64,000 nt of DNA from Clostridia bacterium (GTDB taxonomy: Bacteria > Bacillota > Clostridia > Oscillospirales > RGIG5299): the NCBI GenBank assembly GCA_017504945.1, contig JAFVQJ010000023.1, positions 1-64,000 on the forward strand. Direction: 5' to 3'. Of the stretch, positions 1 through 39,611 are shown piece by piece (position 1 is the stretch's first letter; each line of letters opens with the position of its first letter). Made by a program: the position numbers and the translations under genes. The notes under the pieces were generated by a model. It ran no database searches. It was not told the DNA's origin and worked only from the letters and a program-made list of their open reading frames with translations.

Positions 1-131
1 ATGATATCGCTCTGCGAGCGATGATATATGCCTGCGGCATATTAAAGAACGGATATTATATCATATTTTCACGAAGTGGAAATATATCATACGGCGAAGC
101 CGTATATCATATCTCGTCAGAGATATATCAT
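1..131. repeat. Hairpin array 1 with strand-switching 7-nt linkers (right part)
   Basis: Short palindromic modules are separated by a 7-nt linker. Two linkers read ATGATAT (1-7, 21-27) and then four read the reverse complement ATATCAT (58-64, 84-90, 104-110, 125-131). Modules include 8-20 (CGCTC/GAGCG), 28-40 (ATGCC/GGCAT), 65-83 (stem with one wobble), 91-103 (ACGGC-GAA-GCCGT) and 111-124 (ATCTC-GTCA-GAGAT). The array probably continues left of the window. It has the same design as arrays near 28.9 kb and 39.2 kb. It contains no credible gene. The remainder up to the lgt-like gene holds only two hairpins (203-231, 250-283). Confidence 0.85.
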
Positions 132-202
132 TCTTTACGCACCGAAAAAACGATCATTTATTTTCGGCAAGCATTTACCTTTCTCAAAGTATGTAACCCA
201 CT

Positions 203-4517: not shown

Positions 4518-6227
4518 ATGACCTTATTCAAACGAACCTTGTCCGTTTTGACTGCCGCGGCAGTAGTTGCCGGAGTGTCGGCAGTCATTGCGACGTCCGA
4601 TTTAAAATCGGATAAACAGCCGTCGGATAACGGCGGTCAAACAACGGTCGGCTACGCGGATTTTTCGTCAATCGCCACCGTGAGCGAAATTTTAGAAGTT
4701 GCGATGAACGTTGCTCCCTCGGGTGAAGTCATCAATATGTCGGCTCACCTCACTCCTACCGCAACTGCGGCGGAGCAGACAAGCTACGCTGTCGGAAATG
4801 CGGCGGCACTTAACGCGCTTCTTTCCTCTCTCGACGCGTCGAAGGAATACGTCCTCTATTTCAAGGGCGGCTGTTACGGCCTTAACGGTGCGGTAACCTT
4901 TCCCGAAAACACTACTCTTATGTTTGATTCAAACGCTTCGAGCTCACTTTACTGCGGATACGGCACCACTCCCGTTTTTAACTGCAAAAACGTTATTACG
5001 GAAAGCGACCACTGTGTTTTTTATCTTGATATCAATTCGATCCCCGAAAACTCGGGTAATTTTGCAAATTTGTCTTATGTCAGACCCGAATGGTTCGGCG
5101 GCTTCCCAAGCGACGGTATCGACGATTCCGGTGCGTTTACTCTTGCCGCGCGCTTCGGTATTCCCGTTTTGCTTTCGGAGGGTGTTTATAACGTAAATTC
5201 CCCCGTAAACGTAAGAAACGATCTGTTTTTATACGGTAACACCGAAAGCAAAGGCTCGGTAATAAAGGTTGCCGCAGGCGTTACTGCTTTTAACGTTATC
5301 TGTTATACTTCCCAAAGCGTTGATTCAAACGGAGTTATCTCAAGAGTCGGAAACGCCTACGTTTCGCGAATTGAAAACGTTAAGTTTGAGGGCGCGGCAA
5401 TGTCAAGCGGCGGTGCGGTTGCCTATTACGGCGTGAACAACGGTGTGAGCCGCATAGATGCCTATAACTGCGAATTCAACGATCTCGGCACTGCCGTATT
5501 CTTTGATTTCTCCGGCGGCTGTTCCTTTGAAGATCTTGTTTTCAACAGAGTCGACAGAGCTGTCGACGTGGGCGCTTATTCAATGTTTATATTTGTAACC
5601 GATTGCCACGCTGCCGATTCGAGCTGCTTGGTCTTCTGCGATCAGTTAGAGACAAACGGTGTTGCAAACGGTATTCAGATAGACAGATGCTCCACCTTGA
5701 GAAACCGCTGGGCAAGCGTTTATATAACCAAAAATCAGACTACCTTTATAACAAACTGCAACTTTGATGCGATTTCAAATTGGGGTATAAAGCTTATCGA
5801 ATGCTATGATTCGAGAATAGACAACAACGTGATCACCTTTTCGGGAACACATTCGGAAACGGGACTTTTTGAAGAGGGAATATATCTTGATACCTCGTCG
5901 GGAAGAGAATCGGTTACCGGAAATCACGTTATAGGCTTTACGATAGGTATTGCTTTGACGAAGGGAAACTGTACCCGCTCGGGTGCTATCGTGCATAACA
6001 ATCTTATTAAGGATTGTGTGAACGGTATGTATATAGCCAATCTTAACGACGTTAAGATAATTGCAAACGCCTTTAAGGGCTGTGCGATGGGTATGTACGG
6101 AAGCAACAATGCGGGCGTGATAATTGCCCAAAACACCTTCAACGGTAACGGCAGCGACGAAATACTTAAAAACGTTATAGGCTTTGTTAGCGGTATCGTT
6201 GCAAATAACGGCTACGGTATAGCGTAA
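4518..6227 (+). CDS. Exported right-handed beta-helix protein
   Basis: A 569-residue protein with an N-terminal export signal (residues 1-28; alanine-rich, no clear lipobox). Residues about 130-569 carry short repeated strand units typical of the pectate-lyase-like right-handed parallel beta-helix fold. Features include the linker RPEWFGGFPSDGIDDSGAF at about 190-208, common in such proteins, and repeats with N/G ladder residues (DNNVITF, GNHVIGF, HNNLIKD, IANAFKG, AQNTFNG). No catalytic triad of a known polysaccharide lyase or hydrolase could be assigned. It is followed after 14 bp by a paralogous lipoprotein, so the pair probably works together on a cell-surface or extracellular glycan. Confidence 0.8.
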   Translation: MTLFKRTLSVLTAAAVVAGVSAVIATSDLKSDKQPSDNGGQTTVGYADFSSIATVSEILEVAMNVAPSGEVINMSAHLTPTATAAEQTSYAVGNAAALNALLSSLDASKEYVLYFKGGCYGLNGAVTFPENTTLMFDSNASSSLYCGYGTTPVFNCKNVITESDHCVFYLDINSIPENSGNFANLSYVRPEWFGGFPSDGIDDSGAFTLAARFGIPVLLSEGVYNVNSPVNVRNDLFLYGNTESKGSVIKVAAGVTAFNVICYTSQSVDSNGVISRVGNAYVSRIENVKFEGAAMSSGGAVAYYGVNNGVSRIDAYNCEFNDLGTAVFFDFSGGCSFEDLVFNRVDRAVDVGAYSMFIFVTDCHAADSSCLVFCDQLETNGVANGIQIDRCSTLRNRWASVYITKNQTTFITNCNFDAISNWGIKLIECYDSRIDNNVITFSGTHSETGLFEEGIYLDTSSGRESVTGNHVIGFTIGIALTKGNCTRSGAIVHNNLIKDCVNGMYIANLNDVKIIANAFKGCAMGMYGSNNAGVIIAQNTFNGNGSDEILKNVIGFVSGIVANNGYGIA

Positions 6228-12279: not shown

Positions 12280-12729
12280 ATGAAAAAGGTGCTTTTTTTA
12301 TGCCACGGCAATATCTGCCGCTCGCCCATAGCGGAATACGTGTTTAAGAATATTTCAAAGGGCAGGGAAATATACTGCGAATCGAAGGCGGTGTCGTCAG
12401 AGGAGCTTGGAAATCCTATCTATCCTCCCGCGGCGGCGGTGCTTCGCGCACACGGCGTGCCGTTTGGAAACCACAGAGCGCGCAAGACGGAAAAAAGCGA
12501 TTACGACGCCTTTGATTATATAATAGTAATGGAGAGCTACAATATTCCGCGTCTTATGAGAATAATCGGAGAAGACCCCAAAGGAAAGGTCCGCCGTCTG
12601 CTCGATTTCACAAATAAGCCGGGAGATATCGAGGACCCGTGGTACAGCGGAAATTTCGAGAAGGTATATTCGCAGATCGAAGAGGGCTGTTCCGCCTTGC
12701 TTAAAGTCCTCGACGGCGAAAATAAATAA
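12280..12729 (+). CDS. Low-molecular-weight protein tyrosine phosphatase
   Basis: A 149-residue cytosolic phosphatase. The catalytic P-loop CHGNICRSP starts at Cys8 (C-X5-R) and the general-acid loop DPWY lies near residue 118, so the active site is complete. Family members dephosphorylate tyrosine or arginine phosphates on proteins. The last 27 codons were copied into a tandem duplication and reappear as a fragment at 13953-14035. GAGGTAACGG supplies the ribosome site. The two secreted proteins downstream have their own promoters. Confidence 0.93.
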   Translation: MKKVLFLCHGNICRSPIAEYVFKNISKGREIYCESKAVSSEELGNPIYPPAAAVLRAHGVPFGNHRARKTEKSDYDAFDYIIVMESYNIPRLMRIIGEDPKGKVRRLLDFTNKPGDIEDPWYSGNFEKVYSQIEEGCSALLKVLDGENK

Positions 12730-12764
12730 AAATACAAAAACTGCAGTTTTTTATTAAAAAACTA

Positions 12765-12792
12765 TTGCATTTTGCTTAAAATTTTATATAAT
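12765..12792 (+). promoter_or_regulatory. Promoter of secreted protein, copy 1
   Basis: TTGCAT (12765-12770), 16-bp spacer, TATAAT (12787-12792). A GAAAGGAAAA ribosome site precedes the ATG at 12831. Confidence 0.75.
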
Positions 12793-12830
12793 AGAATTAC
12801 AATAAAATTTTTCGAAAGGAAAAAAGCAAA

Positions 12831-13736
12831 ATGAAAAAGATACTTGCAATAGCACTTACTCTTACTCTTATTTTAGCCCTTGCTGTTATGCCCACCAGCG
12901 CAGCTTCTCTCTCTTCCAACTGGACTGAGATCTGGAATATGGTTGACGGATGCGGCGAGCTCGTAGTGGATAACGACGGATCTATCTATTTCGATAGCGA
13001 AATCGGCGGCTTCCACGGCGGAATTGGTGTTACCTACAATGAAAAGGTAGCGGTTGACGGCCTTGAAATACACATTAAGCTTGAAAATCTTACCGGTGTA
13101 AATACATTCCTTCCCGCTACTCTCGGTCAGCTTATTTCAGTAAACCTTTCCGCAGATAAAGCAACCGATTTCGTACCCTACAGTGTTAACGGTACCGCAC
13201 AGGAACCCACTGCAGACTGGAAAAACCCCAATTGCGGCTTTGCTACCGGCCTTGACGTAAAGTGCCTCTCCACTGCAGCGGTTACCTTTACTCAGGTTGG
13301 CAACGACGAGACCTACGGTATCTTCGGCGGTATGACCTCCGCTATTAAGATCGGTTACGATGCAGTTGTCGGTGACGTTATTAACAGCGGCGACGAGTTC
13401 CTCCTCAAGTTCGTAGTTGACGGTGAAAACGTAAAGGTTCTCGTTAACGGCGCTGAGCTCGGCGTTACCTTCCTTGCAGCAGACGTTCTTGATGCAGAAG
13501 GTAAAGCATACCTCTCATTCAGCAATCAGGGCTTTGGTACCTCGCACGCAGCACTTATCGTTAAGTACATCAACGGTGTAGCAGCTAACGATTGGGCAGG
13601 CGAAGCAGGTTCTTGCGCTCCCATCACTCCCGATGAGCCCGAGACTCCCTCCGAGCCCGCTCCCTCTGAGCCCGAGTCCTCTATCGTTATCACTCCTCCC
13701 GCTGAGAACAAAGGCGGCTGCGGAAATAACGCATAA
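12831..13736 (+). CDS. Secreted protein with C-terminal KGGCGNNA, tandem copy 1
   Basis: A 301-residue exported protein of unknown function. The signal peptide (MKKILAIALTLTLILALAVM, ending near TSA-A) is identical to that of the next gene. The mature domain of about 230 residues is predicted mostly beta strand, with lectin-like patterns such as VDGLEIHIKLEN, FVVDGENVKVLVNGAEL and DAEGKAYLSF. A PSEPAPSEPESS linker then leads to the tail KGGCGNNA at the stop codon. There is no LPXTG motif and no C-terminal transmembrane helix. It is one of three paralogues in the window. Possible roles are surface lectin, glycan sensor or matrix component; none is demonstrated. Confidence 0.85.
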   Translation: MKKILAIALTLTLILALAVMPTSAASLSSNWTEIWNMVDGCGELVVDNDGSIYFDSEIGGFHGGIGVTYNEKVAVDGLEIHIKLENLTGVNTFLPATLGQLISVNLSADKATDFVPYSVNGTAQEPTADWKNPNCGFATGLDVKCLSTAAVTFTQVGNDETYGIFGGMTSAIKIGYDAVVGDVINSGDEFLLKFVVDGENVKVLVNGAELGVTFLAADVLDAEGKAYLSFSNQGFGTSHAALIVKYINGVAANDWAGEAGSCAPITPDEPETPSEPAPSEPESSIVITPPAENKGGCGNNA

Positions 13737-13753
13737 TTTGATTTAAAACTAAA

Positions 13754-13783
13754 GGATCCACCCATACGGGTGGATCTTTTGTT
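13754..13783 (+). terminator. Terminator of secreted protein copy 1
   Basis: GATCCACCC/GGGTGGATC stem followed by TTTTGTTTTTT. An almost identical hairpin ends copy 2 at 15053. Confidence 0.85.
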
Positions 13784-13952
13784 TTTTGCTAAAGTTAAGG
13801 GTGATTACCGCTCGAGCCACGAGGTTCCTCTATGATTGAAATTTCCCACTGCGCGTGGGGCGCCTATTTCTTGTAGCGATAAGAAATAGGAAAAGAAGCG
13901 CTTTAAAGGGGAAGCTTCCCCTATGCTCGCGAGCGAGAAAAAAGCAAAATCC
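13784..13952. other. Non-coding duplicated tail with small inverted repeats
   Basis: Part of a 402-bp stretch between the two secreted-protein genes. It holds CCGCTCGAGCC (13808-13818), the palindromic GGGGAAGCTTCCCC and CTCGCGAG motifs, and a segment (13840-13935) nearly identical to 15119-15215. No gene or recognised RNA was seen. The end is the duplication junction. Confidence 0.7.
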
Positions 13953-14035
13953 GCGGAAATTTCGAGAAGGTATATTCGCAGATCGAAGAGGGCTGTGCCG
14001 CCTTGCTTAAAGTCCTCGACGGCGAAAATAAATAA
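13953..14035 (+). pseudogene. Fragment of the LMW phosphatase gene (last 27 codons)
   Basis: This stretch matches 12647-12729 with a Ser to Ala codon change in the segment EEGC-S/A-ALLKV and the same stop codon. It lacks the catalytic loop and a start codon, so it is a passenger of the duplication and not functional. Confidence 0.9.
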
Positions 14036-14071
14036 AAATACAAAAACTACAGTTTTTTATTAAAAAAACTA

Positions 14072-14100
14072 TTGCATTTTGTTTAAAAAATATATATAAT
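14072..14100 (+). promoter_or_regulatory. Promoter of secreted protein, copy 2
   Basis: TTGCAT (14072-14077), 17-bp spacer, TATAAT (14095-14100). The spacer is one base longer than in copy 1, which may change relative expression. Confidence 0.75.
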
Positions 14101-14138
14101 AGAATTACAATAAAATTTTTCGAAAGGAAAAAAGCAAA

Positions 14139-15035
14139 ATGAAAAAGATACTTGCAATAGCACTTACCCTTACTCTTATTTTAGCCCTTGCTGTTATGCC
14201 CACCAGCGCAGCAACTCTCTCTTCCAACTGGAATGAGATCTGGAATATGTGTCTTGATGCAAATGGCGCTCAGGAACAGGCCGGCGAAGCAATTGCAGAC
14301 GATACAGGCGCTATCACCCTTAACAATGATGGCTTTGGTTGGTTCTCAAAAGTTGGTCTTGTGTACAATGAAAAGGTAACCGTTGATGGTCTTGAGCTTA
14401 TTATCTCCATAGATAACCTCTATGACGGTGCTGATCTCCCCGGTATGCCTACAGCACTTACTTCTTTCGTTAATGTTATTCTTTCTGCTGATAAAGCAGA
14501 CAACTTTGTTCAGTATGATGTCACCGATGGAACAAACCCCATGGGTGGTTTCTCTAACGGTCTAAACATGACAGCAGCTACTTCCGCAGCTTTGACCTTC
14601 GCCATGAATAACGACCGCGCTTCTTGGAGCGCATTCGGCGGTATGGATTCTGCTATTAAGGTTTCATATGAGAACCTTTATGGCAACTTTGCTGATGAGG
14701 CTGATATCACCGTTAAATTTGTTGCAAACGGCGACAATATTGATATTCTTCTTGACGGTCAAGTAGCAATGAGTTTTGCGGCAGCAGAGGTTCTCGATGC
14801 TGACGGTAAAGCATATCTCGCATTCGCAGCTAACGGCTACGGCAATGCAGCAGCTAATATGACCGTTAAAGCCATCAACGGCCAAACAGCTAACAGCTTC
14901 CTTGCCGCAGGTGGCGGAACACCCTACGCTCCCGACGCTCCTGAGTCAAGCGAGCCCGCTCCCTCTGAGCCCGAGTCCTCTATCGTTATCACTCCTCCCG
15001 CTGAGAACAAAGGCGGCTGCGGAAATAACGCATAA
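14139..15035 (+). CDS. Secreted protein with C-terminal KGGCGNNA, tandem copy 2
   Basis: A 298-residue exported paralogue of the preceding gene. The first 25 residues (signal peptide) and the last 29 (Ser/Pro/Glu linker plus KGGCGNNA) are identical, yet the mature domain between them differs at more than half of the positions. Shared anchors are LSSNW-EIWNM, YNEKV-VDGLE, LSADKA, FGGM-SAIK and DGKAYL. Function unknown. The pattern of conserved ends and divergent middle suggests diversification of the exposed domain or recombination with another family member. Confidence 0.85.
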   Translation: MKKILAIALTLTLILALAVMPTSAATLSSNWNEIWNMCLDANGAQEQAGEAIADDTGAITLNNDGFGWFSKVGLVYNEKVTVDGLELIISIDNLYDGADLPGMPTALTSFVNVILSADKADNFVQYDVTDGTNPMGGFSNGLNMTAATSAALTFAMNNDRASWSAFGGMDSAIKVSYENLYGNFADEADITVKFVANGDNIDILLDGQVAMSFAAAEVLDADGKAYLAFAANGYGNAAANMTVKAINGQTANSFLAAGGGTPYAPDAPESSEPAPSEPESSIVITPPAENKGGCGNNA

Positions 15036-15052
15036 TTTGATTTAAAACTAAA

Positions 15053-15080
15053 GGATCCACCCATACGGGTGGATCCTTTG
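15053..15080 (+). terminator. Terminator of secreted protein copy 2
   Basis: GGATCCACCC/GGGTGGATCC stem followed by TTTGTTTTTG; the duplicated counterpart of 13754-13783. Confidence 0.85.
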
Positions 15081-15642
15081 TTTTTGTTCAAACGGTGGCG
15101 GCGTCGCTTTCTCAAAATCCCCACTGCGCGTGGAGCGCCTATTTCTTGTAGCGACAAGAAATAGGAAAAGAAGCGCTTTAAAGGGGAAGCTTCCCCTATG
15201 CTCGCGAGAGAAAGGAAAACAAAAATCCCCTTTCACTTCGGCGAAAAGCATACGGAAGCAAAAGCTTCCTATGCATTTCTTATGCGAAAGGAAAGTTTAT
15301 ACAAAGGGTGAAAGGGGGTTGCTTGTTCGCATTTACCCCTCTTTTGTTGCGTTTCCAAAAGATGCGCAAGGTTTCAAAAGGGCGGTAGCCCTTTGCGGTT
15401 TCAAGGGGTTAGCCGCGAAGATGACATAAAGCAATAGATAAGTACAGCTAAAGCGGCGTAAGGGGGAAATTCCGAATCCCCCTTGCGCCGAGGGCGAGAA
15501 AAAGATTCTTTTCCCCCTTTTCTCATCTTTGAGAAAAGGGGAGCCCCGCGGCTCGAGCGGTAAAGCCCCGCGGCTTGAGCGGAAATGAAAAAGAAAAATC
15601 AAATTGGTGTGCGCCCTGCGGCTTGAGCGGGGGAAAAAGCAA
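15081..15642. repeat. Non-coding region with dispersed short repeats
   Basis: Over 500 bp without a credible gene. It contains the duplicated segment 15119-15215, hairpins such as GAAGC-AAAA-GCTTC near 15256, and three copies of CGGCYTGAGCGG (15549-15560, 15571-15582, 15619-15630), whose reverse complement also occurs at 13808. Open frames here are repetitive, purine-skewed and lack ribosome sites. It looks like accumulated intergenic repeat debris or a structured RNA of unknown type. Confidence 0.6.
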
Positions 15643-28875: not shown

Positions 28876-28904
28876 TGCGAGACTTCTCATAAGGAAGTCT
28901 CGCA
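28876..28904 (+). terminator. Hairpin after the GDPD gene
   Basis: TGCGAGACTTC/GAAGTCTCGCA perfect stem with a short T-rich tail, 25 bp behind the stop codon; probable terminator of the ECF operon. Confidence 0.65.
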
Positions 28905-28905
28905 G

Positions 28906-29078
28906 TTTTATTCGCCAAATATATTTGGCGAGTGATATTGCTTCGCAGTGATATGATGCTTCGCATCGTGATATTCGGCTACGCCGAGTTTGGCGAATAA
29001 AATAACACTGAAACCGCAAGGTTTCAATAACACTATTGCGTAAGCGATAATATCACTCCGACAAAGTCGGAATATAAC
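28906..29078. repeat. Hairpin array 2 with strand-switching linkers
   Basis: It begins with the perfect palindrome TCGCCAAATATATTTGGCGA (28912-28931). Linkers GTGATAT at 28932, 28948 and 28968 separate hairpins 28939-28947, 28955-28967 and 28975-28987. After TGGCGAATAAAA (28990-29001), the exact reverse complement of 28906-28917, linkers change to ATAACAC (29002, 29027), ATATCAC (29050) and ATATAAC (29072), separating hairpins 29009-29026, 29034-29049 and 29057-29071. The linkers are less uniform than in array 3, so this copy looks older or decayed. No coding potential. Confidence 0.85.
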
Positions 29079-38772: not shown

Positions 38773-38814
38773 GATGTGGTATTGTATATCGCCATTGCTT
38801 TTGCAATGGATAAA

Positions 38815-38845
38815 AAAATCCAAGTCCGAAGACTTGGATTTTTTG
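38815..38845 (-). terminator. Terminator of the 60-residue membrane protein gene
   Basis: AATCCAAGTC-CGAA-GACTTGGATT stem with T runs on both sides. Confidence 0.85.
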
Positions 38846-38873: not shown

Positions 38874-39056
38874 TTATTTGTTTGATTTTAATATTTTAAG
38901 AAAAACAAAGAAAAGAACAATTGAAATTAAATGCAAGATGATAGCAATTATTGATATAATTATATGTAGCTCGATAAATAGACCAACAAGGTGAATAAAC
39001 GAAGCTGTCAAAATGCAGAATAAAGCTAATAAAGAAACAATCTTTTCTTTTTTCAT
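38874..39056 (-). CDS. Small two-helix membrane protein, A+T-rich
   Basis: 60 residues: a basic start (MKKEK), two long hydrophobic helices (about 8-28 and 31-54) and a basic end (KSNK). GGAGTG eight bases before the ATG and a clean terminator support a real gene. Base use is A+T-rich like the 141-residue protein at 29250, and again a hairpin array lies next to it. No family recognised. Confidence 0.6.
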   Translation of the reverse strand: MKKEKIVSLLALFCILTASFIHLVGLFIELHIIISIIAIILHLISIVLFFVFLKILKSNK

Positions 39057-39206
39057 AATATTAACACTCCAATAAAGCTATATTACATATTTTTGTTTGC
39101 TGATTGAAACGTTGGGACAAATAGAATTATCTTATGAAAAGATTAAATTTTTCATAAACGTACCGCCCTTTTTTGTTATTATATCATAAATTCATATACT
39201 TGTCAA

Positions 39207-39377
39207 ATGATGCATCGCCTGCGGCGATATGATGTTTTTCGCTTCGCTCAAAATGATGTTGCTCCACTGCGTTCCGCAATGATGCGATGTTTGCCCAATG
39301 TGCCGCAAGGCACACATCATTAGGCGCAGCCGTCATCATTGGCGAAGCCGTCATCATTTGCCGCAGGCAAACATCAT
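39207..39377. repeat. Hairpin array 3: four ATGATG linkers then four CATCAT linkers
   Basis: The clearest array. ATGATG occurs at 39207, 39229, 39253 and 39279; the reverse complement CATCAT occurs at 39315, 39334, 39352 and 39372. Between linkers lie hairpins: 39214-39228 (ATCGCC/GGCGAT), 39235-39252 (imperfect), 39259-39279 (TTGC/GCAA), a central TGTGCC-GCAA-GGCACA (39299-39314), then 39323-39331, 39341-39349 and 39358-39370 (TTGCC/GGCAA). Linkers of the left half can pair with those of the right half, producing one long branched stem. The rest of the 365-bp gap is the tRNA terminator and A+T-rich spacer. Confidence 0.9.
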
Positions 39378-39379
39378 TC

Positions 39380-39420
39380 AAAAAACGCACCTTTGTCGGT
39401 AGACAAAAGTGCGTTTTTTG
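39380..39420 (-). terminator. Terminator of the tRNA-Thr/tRNA-Tyr transcript
   Basis: Compound stem AAAACGCAC/GTGCGTTTT with inner TTTGTC-GGTA-GACAAA, T runs on both ends, touching the right end of array 3. Confidence 0.85.
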
Positions 39421-39421
39421 T

Positions 39422-39507
39422 TGGTGGGGGAAGGTGGATTCGGACCACCGAAGCTGAAAAGCAACAGATTTACAGTCTGCCCCCTTTGGCCACTCGGGAA
39501 TTCCCCC
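39422..39507 (-). tRNA. tRNA-Tyr (anticodon GTA)
   Basis: 86 nt including encoded CCA. Acceptor stem GGGGGAA/TTCCCCC, anticodon loop CTGTAAA with GTA, long class II variable arm, and GGTCCGAATCC T-loop region. Second of two tRNAs on the same minus-strand transcript. Confidence 0.97.
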
Positions 39508-39535: not shown

Positions 39536-39611
39536 TGGAGCTGGTGAACGGAATCGAACCATCAACCTGCTGATTACAAATCAGCTGCTCTGCCGATTGA
39601 GCTACACCAGC
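39536..39611 (-). tRNA. tRNA-Thr (anticodon TGT)
   Basis: 76 nt including encoded CCA. Acceptor GCTGGTG/CACCAGC, D-arm TAGCTCAATCGGCAGAGCA, anticodon TGT in loop TTTGTAA, T-arm GGTTCGATTCC. First tRNA behind a consensus promoter, 28 nt from tRNA-Tyr. Confidence 0.97.

Follow-up and report, generated by a model that had tools for sequence, protein, structure and literature searches.

The array downstream of tRNA-Tyr

The window (the whole stretch of 64,000 nucleotides analyzed here) contains a pair of tRNA genes on the minus strand, followed by an intrinsic-terminator hairpin, a symmetrical array of linkers and hairpins, and a small open reading frame. Two sibling arrays lie elsewhere in the window, so that the three arrays counted in the initial annotation all exist. 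The features are:

39536..39611, minus strand: tRNA-Thr(tgt), first gene of the tRNA pair
39422..39507, minus strand: tRNA-Tyr(gta), the address of the focal copy
39379..39420, minus strand: A-run/T-run intrinsic-terminator hairpin that separates the array from the tRNA-Tyr CCA and corresponds to hairpin h0 in other arrays
39207..39377, minus strand: whole symmetrical linker-hairpin array, read on the minus strand, i.e. downstream of tRNA-Tyr
39286..39377, minus strand: first half (A half), ATGATG linkers at 39377-39372, 39357-39352, 39339-39334 and 39320-39315
39370-39358, 39349-39341, 39331-39323 and 39314-39299, minus strand: A-half hairpins
39366..39375, minus strand: 5' strand of the closing helix, GATGTTTGCC, 100% complementary to the 3' strand
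39286..39295, minus strand: 3' strand of the closing helix, GGCAAACATC, and actual array centre
39207..39284, minus strand: second half (B half), CATCAT linkers at 39284-39279, 39258-39253, 39234-39229 and 39212-39207, and three hairpins
39236..39252, minus strand: B-half hairpin TTT-GA-GC-GAA-GC-GA-AAA; its tandem G.A/A.G step (GA/GA) is constant and the pairs on either side covary between arrays
39178..39206, minus strand: promoter-like TTGACA-N17-TATAAT directly behind the last linker, overlapping its last T
38874..39056, minus strand: 60-aa hydrophobic orphan ORF, putative cassette gene
38812..38844, minus strand: second terminator hairpin, preceded on this strand by ...AATTCGTAACAGCCA, a tRNA-like end (by eye)
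38784..38811, minus strand: decayed start of a second array, ATCCATTGCAAAAGCAATGGCGATATAC (by eye, compared with ATCCATTGCGAAAGCAATGGTATATCATC at 82.5 kb of contig C23)
28903..29080, plus strand: sibling array with GTGATAT/ATAACAC/ATATCAC linkers and head-to-head Gut-1 matches
1..141, plus strand: sibling array with ATGATAT/ATATCAT linkers, cut by the contig start and continued in contig C8 (141-nt identical overlap)

Read on the forward strand, ATGATG begins at 39207, 39229, 39253 and 39279 and CATCAT at 39315, 39334, 39352 and 39372, exactly where the initial annotation had put its eight hexamer linkers. A three-linker pattern was seen in none of 100 dinucleotide shuffles of the window. The 231-nt stretch around the array folds with a z-score of -8.7 in comparison to shuffled sequences, whether treated as RNA or as DNA.

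On the minus strand, the array begins right behind the terminator hairpin (39420-39379). The hairpin previously described as its centre is hairpin 4 of the A half; the true centre is the closing strand at 39286-39295, part of a 13-nt segment between the fourth forward-strand ATGATG and that hairpin which had been overlooked. GATGTTTGCC (39375-39366) and GGCAAACATC (39295-39286) are paired at 10 of 10 positions and form the closing helix of the A half. Since the first of these strands also forms hairpin 1 locally with 39362-39358, three strands compete around this helix.

The tRNA terminator and the small membrane-protein gene reported next to the array correspond to tRNA-Tyr with its adjacent terminator-like hairpin and to the 60-aa hydrophobic ORF, for which an NCBIfam search returned no match. 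By eye, the order of array, promoter, 60-aa gene, ...CCA, terminator and decayed second array is the same as in the chains found elsewhere (see below), and the decayed array (38784-38811) would close a one-gene cassette in the window. Another part of the window, 12640-15230, holds a tandem duplication of a unit of about 1.3 kb with segments that are 92-99% identical; it appears to contain secreted-protein-like ORFs with a proline/serine-rich tail, and related segments are present at 1700-2520.

Folding and covariation

The minimum free energy structure of the focal array (-84.5 kcal/mol) is a long arm-to-arm duplex and not the ladder-like stem with side arms that had been proposed, which reaches -44.9 kcal/mol; local hairpins only give -26.5 kcal/mol. 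Ladder pairing of the linkers is energetically possible in comparison to the local hairpins; register-specific compensation between linkers, which would demonstrate it, was not significant (p = 0.15, 10 informative arrays). Arrays L059 and L074 of the focal family carry one register-specific compensatory change, exactly in the nested linker pair A2-B3. In agreement with the earlier view of the linker as the conserved unit, each array has uniform linkers, and those of its two halves correspond whichever linker type is used.

Hairpin sequences vary between arrays yet keep pairing. Arms fully match their own partner (four pairs) in 76% of cases versus 24% with arms of other arrays (205 distinct segments). 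In the ATGATG family (five sequences) nine pairs are changed on both sides, a number that 500 shuffles never gave, and no signal was left when the partners were slid. Four of the five pairs of the B-half hairpin at 39236..39252 (helix 6 of this alignment) are changed on both sides; the closing helix is invariant across the family except for one cell.

Of 73 arrays, 67 have a closing helix, usually with 10-14 bp and with many different sequences; the search accepts matches down to 7 nt, and a few short ones may be chance. In 64 of these 67 arrays the closing strand has a local alternative partner, so that the three-strand plan is present in most arrays. The B-half hairpin with tandem G.A pairs (NNN-GA-..-GA-N'N'N') is present on the array strand in 26 of 73 arrays versus one on the other strand; its inner and outer pairs covary and GA/GA is constant. 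This strand bias indicates that, in the B half at least, it is the strand co-directional with the upstream gene that folds. Most loops of the B half read C(GN(N)A)G without a strict GNRA rule, and A-half loops are their reverse complements; for this reason an argument from RNA-specific tetraloops was dropped.

One half of the array is related to Gut-1 RNA

Gut-1 (Rfam RF01706; Weinberg et al., 2010, PMC2864571) was described as a noncoding RNA known only from human-gut sequences, and our literature search found RF01706 mentioned only in that paper. The Gut-1 model, three hairpins joined by GUGAAAU linkers, is equivalent to one half of the symmetrical array, and tandem hairpins with a uniform 7-nt linker, a feature of Gut-1, are found here as well. 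Both sibling arrays match the model, each as two head-to-head matches, with 58.6 bits (28903-28979) and 44.4 bits; the former passes the Rfam gathering threshold of 50 bits. The focal array gave no match in one search and 21 bits in another. The statement that the array fits no RNA class thus stands for the focal array, which is under the threshold, and has to be revised for its siblings, which are Gut-1 arrays. One half of the array is thus already catalogued in Rfam, as Gut-1 RNA, where its probable mobile-element character is not mentioned. In contrast to Gut-1 as described, the matching segment is half of a palindromic array, occurs with up to about 50 matches per genome, lies in a terminator context and is accompanied by other linker types.

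The genomes searched are mostly metagenome-assembled genomes (MAGs), one per species. The genome of the window (G000, 86% complete, with many arrays at contig ends) contains 50 Gut-1 matches at E <= 1e-3; merging nearby matches from several searches gives about 36 array sites. Gut-1 was detected in 20 of 39 relatives from the same order, often as head-to-head pairs about 20 nt apart, and in 30 of 196 sampled genomes of the class versus none of 14 control genomes. Unbiased screening for 6-mer runs yielded 41 loci from at least 14 genomes with reverse-complementary runs in both halves (counted by sequence; a few could be duplicates of one site), confirming that symmetrical arrays are numerous. 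Linkers are of the types GTGAAAT, GTGAAGT, GTGATAT, ATGATAT, ATGAAAT and ATGATG(T), which differ between arrays; exactly complementary consensus linkers are present in 25 of 32 arrays.

The nearest relatives found for the focal array are L059 and L074 in the same genome and, in G135 (a genome from the same class and outside the order), two arrays that lie behind tRNA-Met and behind tRNA-Glu. When the exact ATGATG pattern was searched in 291 genomes of the class, the matches listed were overwhelmingly coding repeats, and the two true relatives among them were both from G135. Two linker patterns gave almost exclusively chance matches on viral contigs, apart from two symmetrical arrays (L154 and the IMG/VR record L227). 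In L227 (IMGVR_UViG_650377966_000001, 12967-13300) a terminator-array unit lies behind tRNA-Ser and is followed by a short ORF starting with MAESKLRELS that resembles four-helix-bundle cargo. The plasmid search with the type-1 element (see below) and the phage search with the focal array returned zero matches. An array type with longer linkers (TATATCATC... / GATGATATA...) and the terminator end TTTTTTTATCC, which matches Gut-1 poorly, was seen at L058, L067, L072 and at 38784-38811 of the window.

Arrays are placed behind tRNA and tmRNA genes

In 53 of 60 cases, the array strand and the upstream gene run in the same direction (53 versus 7; ORF calls are heuristic, and some of the seven opposite upstream genes may be spurious ORFs), and the orientation of the downstream gene is unbiased (31 versus 26). 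The orientation of the A half was taken from the stronger Gut-1 match, independently of the neighbours. The distance to the array is 29-46 nt for most tRNA ends and, as a rule, 41-60 nt for stop codons. An A-run/T-run hairpin between CCA and array defines the terminator class, in which 33 of 35 arrays are directly behind CCA, counting intact tRNA/tmRNA genes as well as remnants that resemble tRNA 3' ends (judged by eye). The same or nearly the same terminator hairpin is seen repeatedly, at different tRNAs and in different families, for instance GAAAACGACAGATTCCGACAGGAATCTGTCGTTTTC, which the tmRNA loci of G021 and G012 share with a tRNA-Leu locus of G011; terminator and array therefore appear to travel together.

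At tRNA-Tyr, an array is present in seven of the 30 loci examined in the order, and the remainder have only other downstream sequence. The linkers of these arrays are of four types: ATGATG in the window, GTGAAAT in a congener and three other families, ATGAAAT in G008 and GTGATAT in G020. Different genes follow, among them the 60-aa hydrophobic ORF in the window and a GNAT gene in G038. Exact location at a tRNA/tmRNA 3' end and presence or absence between genomes, properties of tRNA-targeted integrative elements, are both seen here; an integrase encoded in the element was not found among the array neighbours. Tycheposons and the tRNA/tmRNA-targeted genomic islands catalogued in Islander (PMC4383910) likewise have a tRNA/tmRNA 3'-end address, remnants like tRNA 3' ends and tandem units. 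Unlike them, the units described here are about 1 kb long, carry one or two genes and have their own terminator and array, and no integrase was found nearby.

Two further observations concern tRNA and tmRNA 3' ends. Another unit consists of inverted T-arm fragments around the hairpin CAGTCCGGTGGACTG and ends in a sense tRNA 3' fragment; it was found at tRNA-Arg, tmRNA and tRNA-Tyr in two genomes, sometimes ahead of an array (L056:2080-2290, L077:100-300, L070:7250-7500 and L394, the tRNA-Tyr locus of G003). At L070:1100-1250 and 5500-5650, two tmRNA 3' fragments with terminator and array start abruptly within other coding sequence, one of them inside an SDR-like gene; these fragments look 5'-truncated.

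Genes between arrays

Promoter-like TTGaca-N17-TATAAT sites are located directly behind many arrays, and many arrays have no obvious cassette gene behind them. One chain runs from tRNA-Leu through terminator, array, promoter and HAD gene to a tRNA-like end, which is followed by terminator, array, promoter and a ROK gene. Another consists of an array, a 23S_IVP gene with a lipoprotein gene, a terminator, a second array and a zinc-ribbon-like gene. In G143, two direct repeats of the terminator and an array half surround a gene pair whose second product is HipA-like; the names ROK and HipA-like were read by eye, without a Pfam call. The small ORF and the HipA-like kinase ORF in this genome (L420, contig C19, 2000-3500 of the reverse complement) are a possible toxin-antitoxin cassette. 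No recurrent neighbour protein was detected around the arrays, the clusters being mostly arrays read as ORFs. This context (terminator-associated, dispersed and apparently cassette-bounding) had been missed in the initial annotation.

MITE-like copies in mRNA terminators

A MITE-like form (type 1) is about 330 bp long and has the ends GGCGTGATACTC...GGACATCACCC. All five complete copies in the genome of the window sit inside the loop of an mRNA terminator, and the same element of about 330 bp was found within a terminator stem/loop in G017, which belongs to another family. In a cross-pair null test, the flanking terminator halves of 8 of 29 arrays from the window's genome paired better than 99.6% or more of the mismatched combinations; according to this test, no split terminator surrounds the focal copy. 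The type-1 copies have what characterizes MITEs, near-identical dispersed copies with common ends at unrelated sites, and the focal copy lies outside this result. A candidate target-site duplication comprises at most 2-3 nt and is inconsistent between copies. An autonomous partner with the same ends was not found in the window's genome, where the end pattern occurs only at array copies or on contig C20, whose start may cut the copy that carries it. Our literature search yielded no paper on terminator-loop insertion of such arrays. IS1397 and other insertion sequences are known to insert in REP elements (PMC1525189), and MITEs have been reviewed (PMC10969869). Like MITEs and hairpin-targeting insertion sequences, the copies are short and dispersed, have imperfect inverted ends and lie in palindromes. 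They differ in that the core is a symmetrical multi-hairpin array, the target is an intrinsic-terminator loop entered in a fixed orientation, and a cognate transposase was not found.

Proposed function

We propose, with about an even chance of being right, that gut Clostridia contain a mobile module of terminator and fishbone array which bounds small tRNA-addressed gene cassettes and is probably recognized in a folded, single-stranded state. Behind a tRNA or tmRNA gene, the unit would comprise CCA, terminator hairpin and array, in many cases with a promoter and one or two accessory genes after it. Single units as well as tandem units would follow tRNA 3' ends or look-alike remnants, the array marking the junctions of small gene cassettes, and the MITE-like derivatives of about 330 bp would occupy the loops of mRNA terminators. 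Comparison between species suggests cassette-like movement of the tRNA-linked units. The working form of the array is probably single-stranded and folded, either ssDNA or RNA, and corresponds to the strand that runs in the direction of the upstream gene. Its hairpins and the closing helix of the A half would display copies of the motif RTGANNT / ANNTCAY, inverted between the halves, to a trans-acting protein by which the modules would be moved or joined. The anatomy, the covariation of the arms, the bias in strand and position, the presence or absence at one tRNA and the dispersed copies with shared ends are observed; we infer that the array itself is a recognition or recombination signal and that there is an excision/integration reaction.

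A more specific version, put forward tentatively as a possibility that we rather doubt, is that gut Clostridia have an undescribed system of gene cassettes in which Gut-1 arrays serve as recombination (att) sites. Integrase-less units of terminator, fishbone array, promoter and gene(s) at tRNA/tmRNA 3' ends would be joined or excised via folded single strands by a recombinase in trans, and would have MITE-like derivatives in mRNA-terminator loops.

Several other explanations have to be weighed against the mobile module. The array might be a trans- or cis-acting structured RNA ("Gut-1 sRNA") made by read-through of the upstream terminator, with copies that spread only as passengers. Arm covariation, the strand-specific tandem G.A hairpin (26 versus 1), the co-direction with upstream genes (53 versus 7) and the Rfam type "sRNA" argue for it. 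We consider it unlikely because there are tens of copies per genome with common ends in split terminators, presence varies at one tRNA, the terminator immediately upstream should stop transcription into the array and a dedicated promoter was not found; moreover, the C(GN(N)A)G loops of the B half are equally compatible with folded DNA. It is likewise improbable that the arrays are a plain MITE family, non-autonomous transposon copies that prefer terminator hairpins and lie near tRNAs and ahead of genes only by coincidence. Such a family would fit the sharp ends, the imperfect inverted repeats at the termini, the length of about 330 bp, the 94-96% identity of some copies and the loop insertion. 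Yet 33 of 35 terminator-type arrays are directly behind CCA, h0 in CCA-linked arrays is the terminator and not a MITE terminal hairpin, and tandem repeats flank single genes or gene pairs.

Integron cassettes (attC) are small accessory genes separated by sites that are conserved in structure and not in sequence, a layout shared by the units described here. Cassettes similar to those of integrons, having unusual attC sites and mobilized by Xer or an integron integrase, would account for the cargo (GNAT, PTH2, HAD, 23S_IVP and HipA-like genes, orphans), the tandem layout and a folded-strand site of variable sequence and conserved structure. In the window's genome (86% complete), however, a single tyrosine recombinase was detected, which resembles XerA/C/D below family cut-offs and which integron integrase models match far below their cut-off (70 versus 265 bits). 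The units also have their own promoter and terminator, and the symmetrical arrays are multi-hairpin in contrast to single-hairpin attC, so that we regard this explanation as very unlikely. REP/BIME-like palindromes moved by a RAYT/IS200-type Y1 HUH transposase share the oriented hairpin and short conserved motif units in inverted arrangement; here, in contrast, the linker is the repeated part and the hairpins vary. Y1_Tnp is absent from five array-rich genomes (G000, G001, G004, G012 and G028) and present in 7 of 20 array-bearing versus 8 of 19 array-free genomes. An association with Y1/RAYT was rejected since Y1_Tnp presence does not track the arrays, and this explanation, which would need a divergent HUH protein below the Pfam threshold, is extremely improbable.

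If the proposed mobile module exists, an orphan human-gut "noncoding RNA" would become the visible mark of a widespread mobile-element or cassette system in little-cultured Clostridia. It would explain a repeat class that is often found at the contig ends of MAGs, and it would provide a sequence handle on the addition of accessory genes (for example HipA-like kinases, acetyltransferases and orphan membrane proteins) behind tRNA genes.
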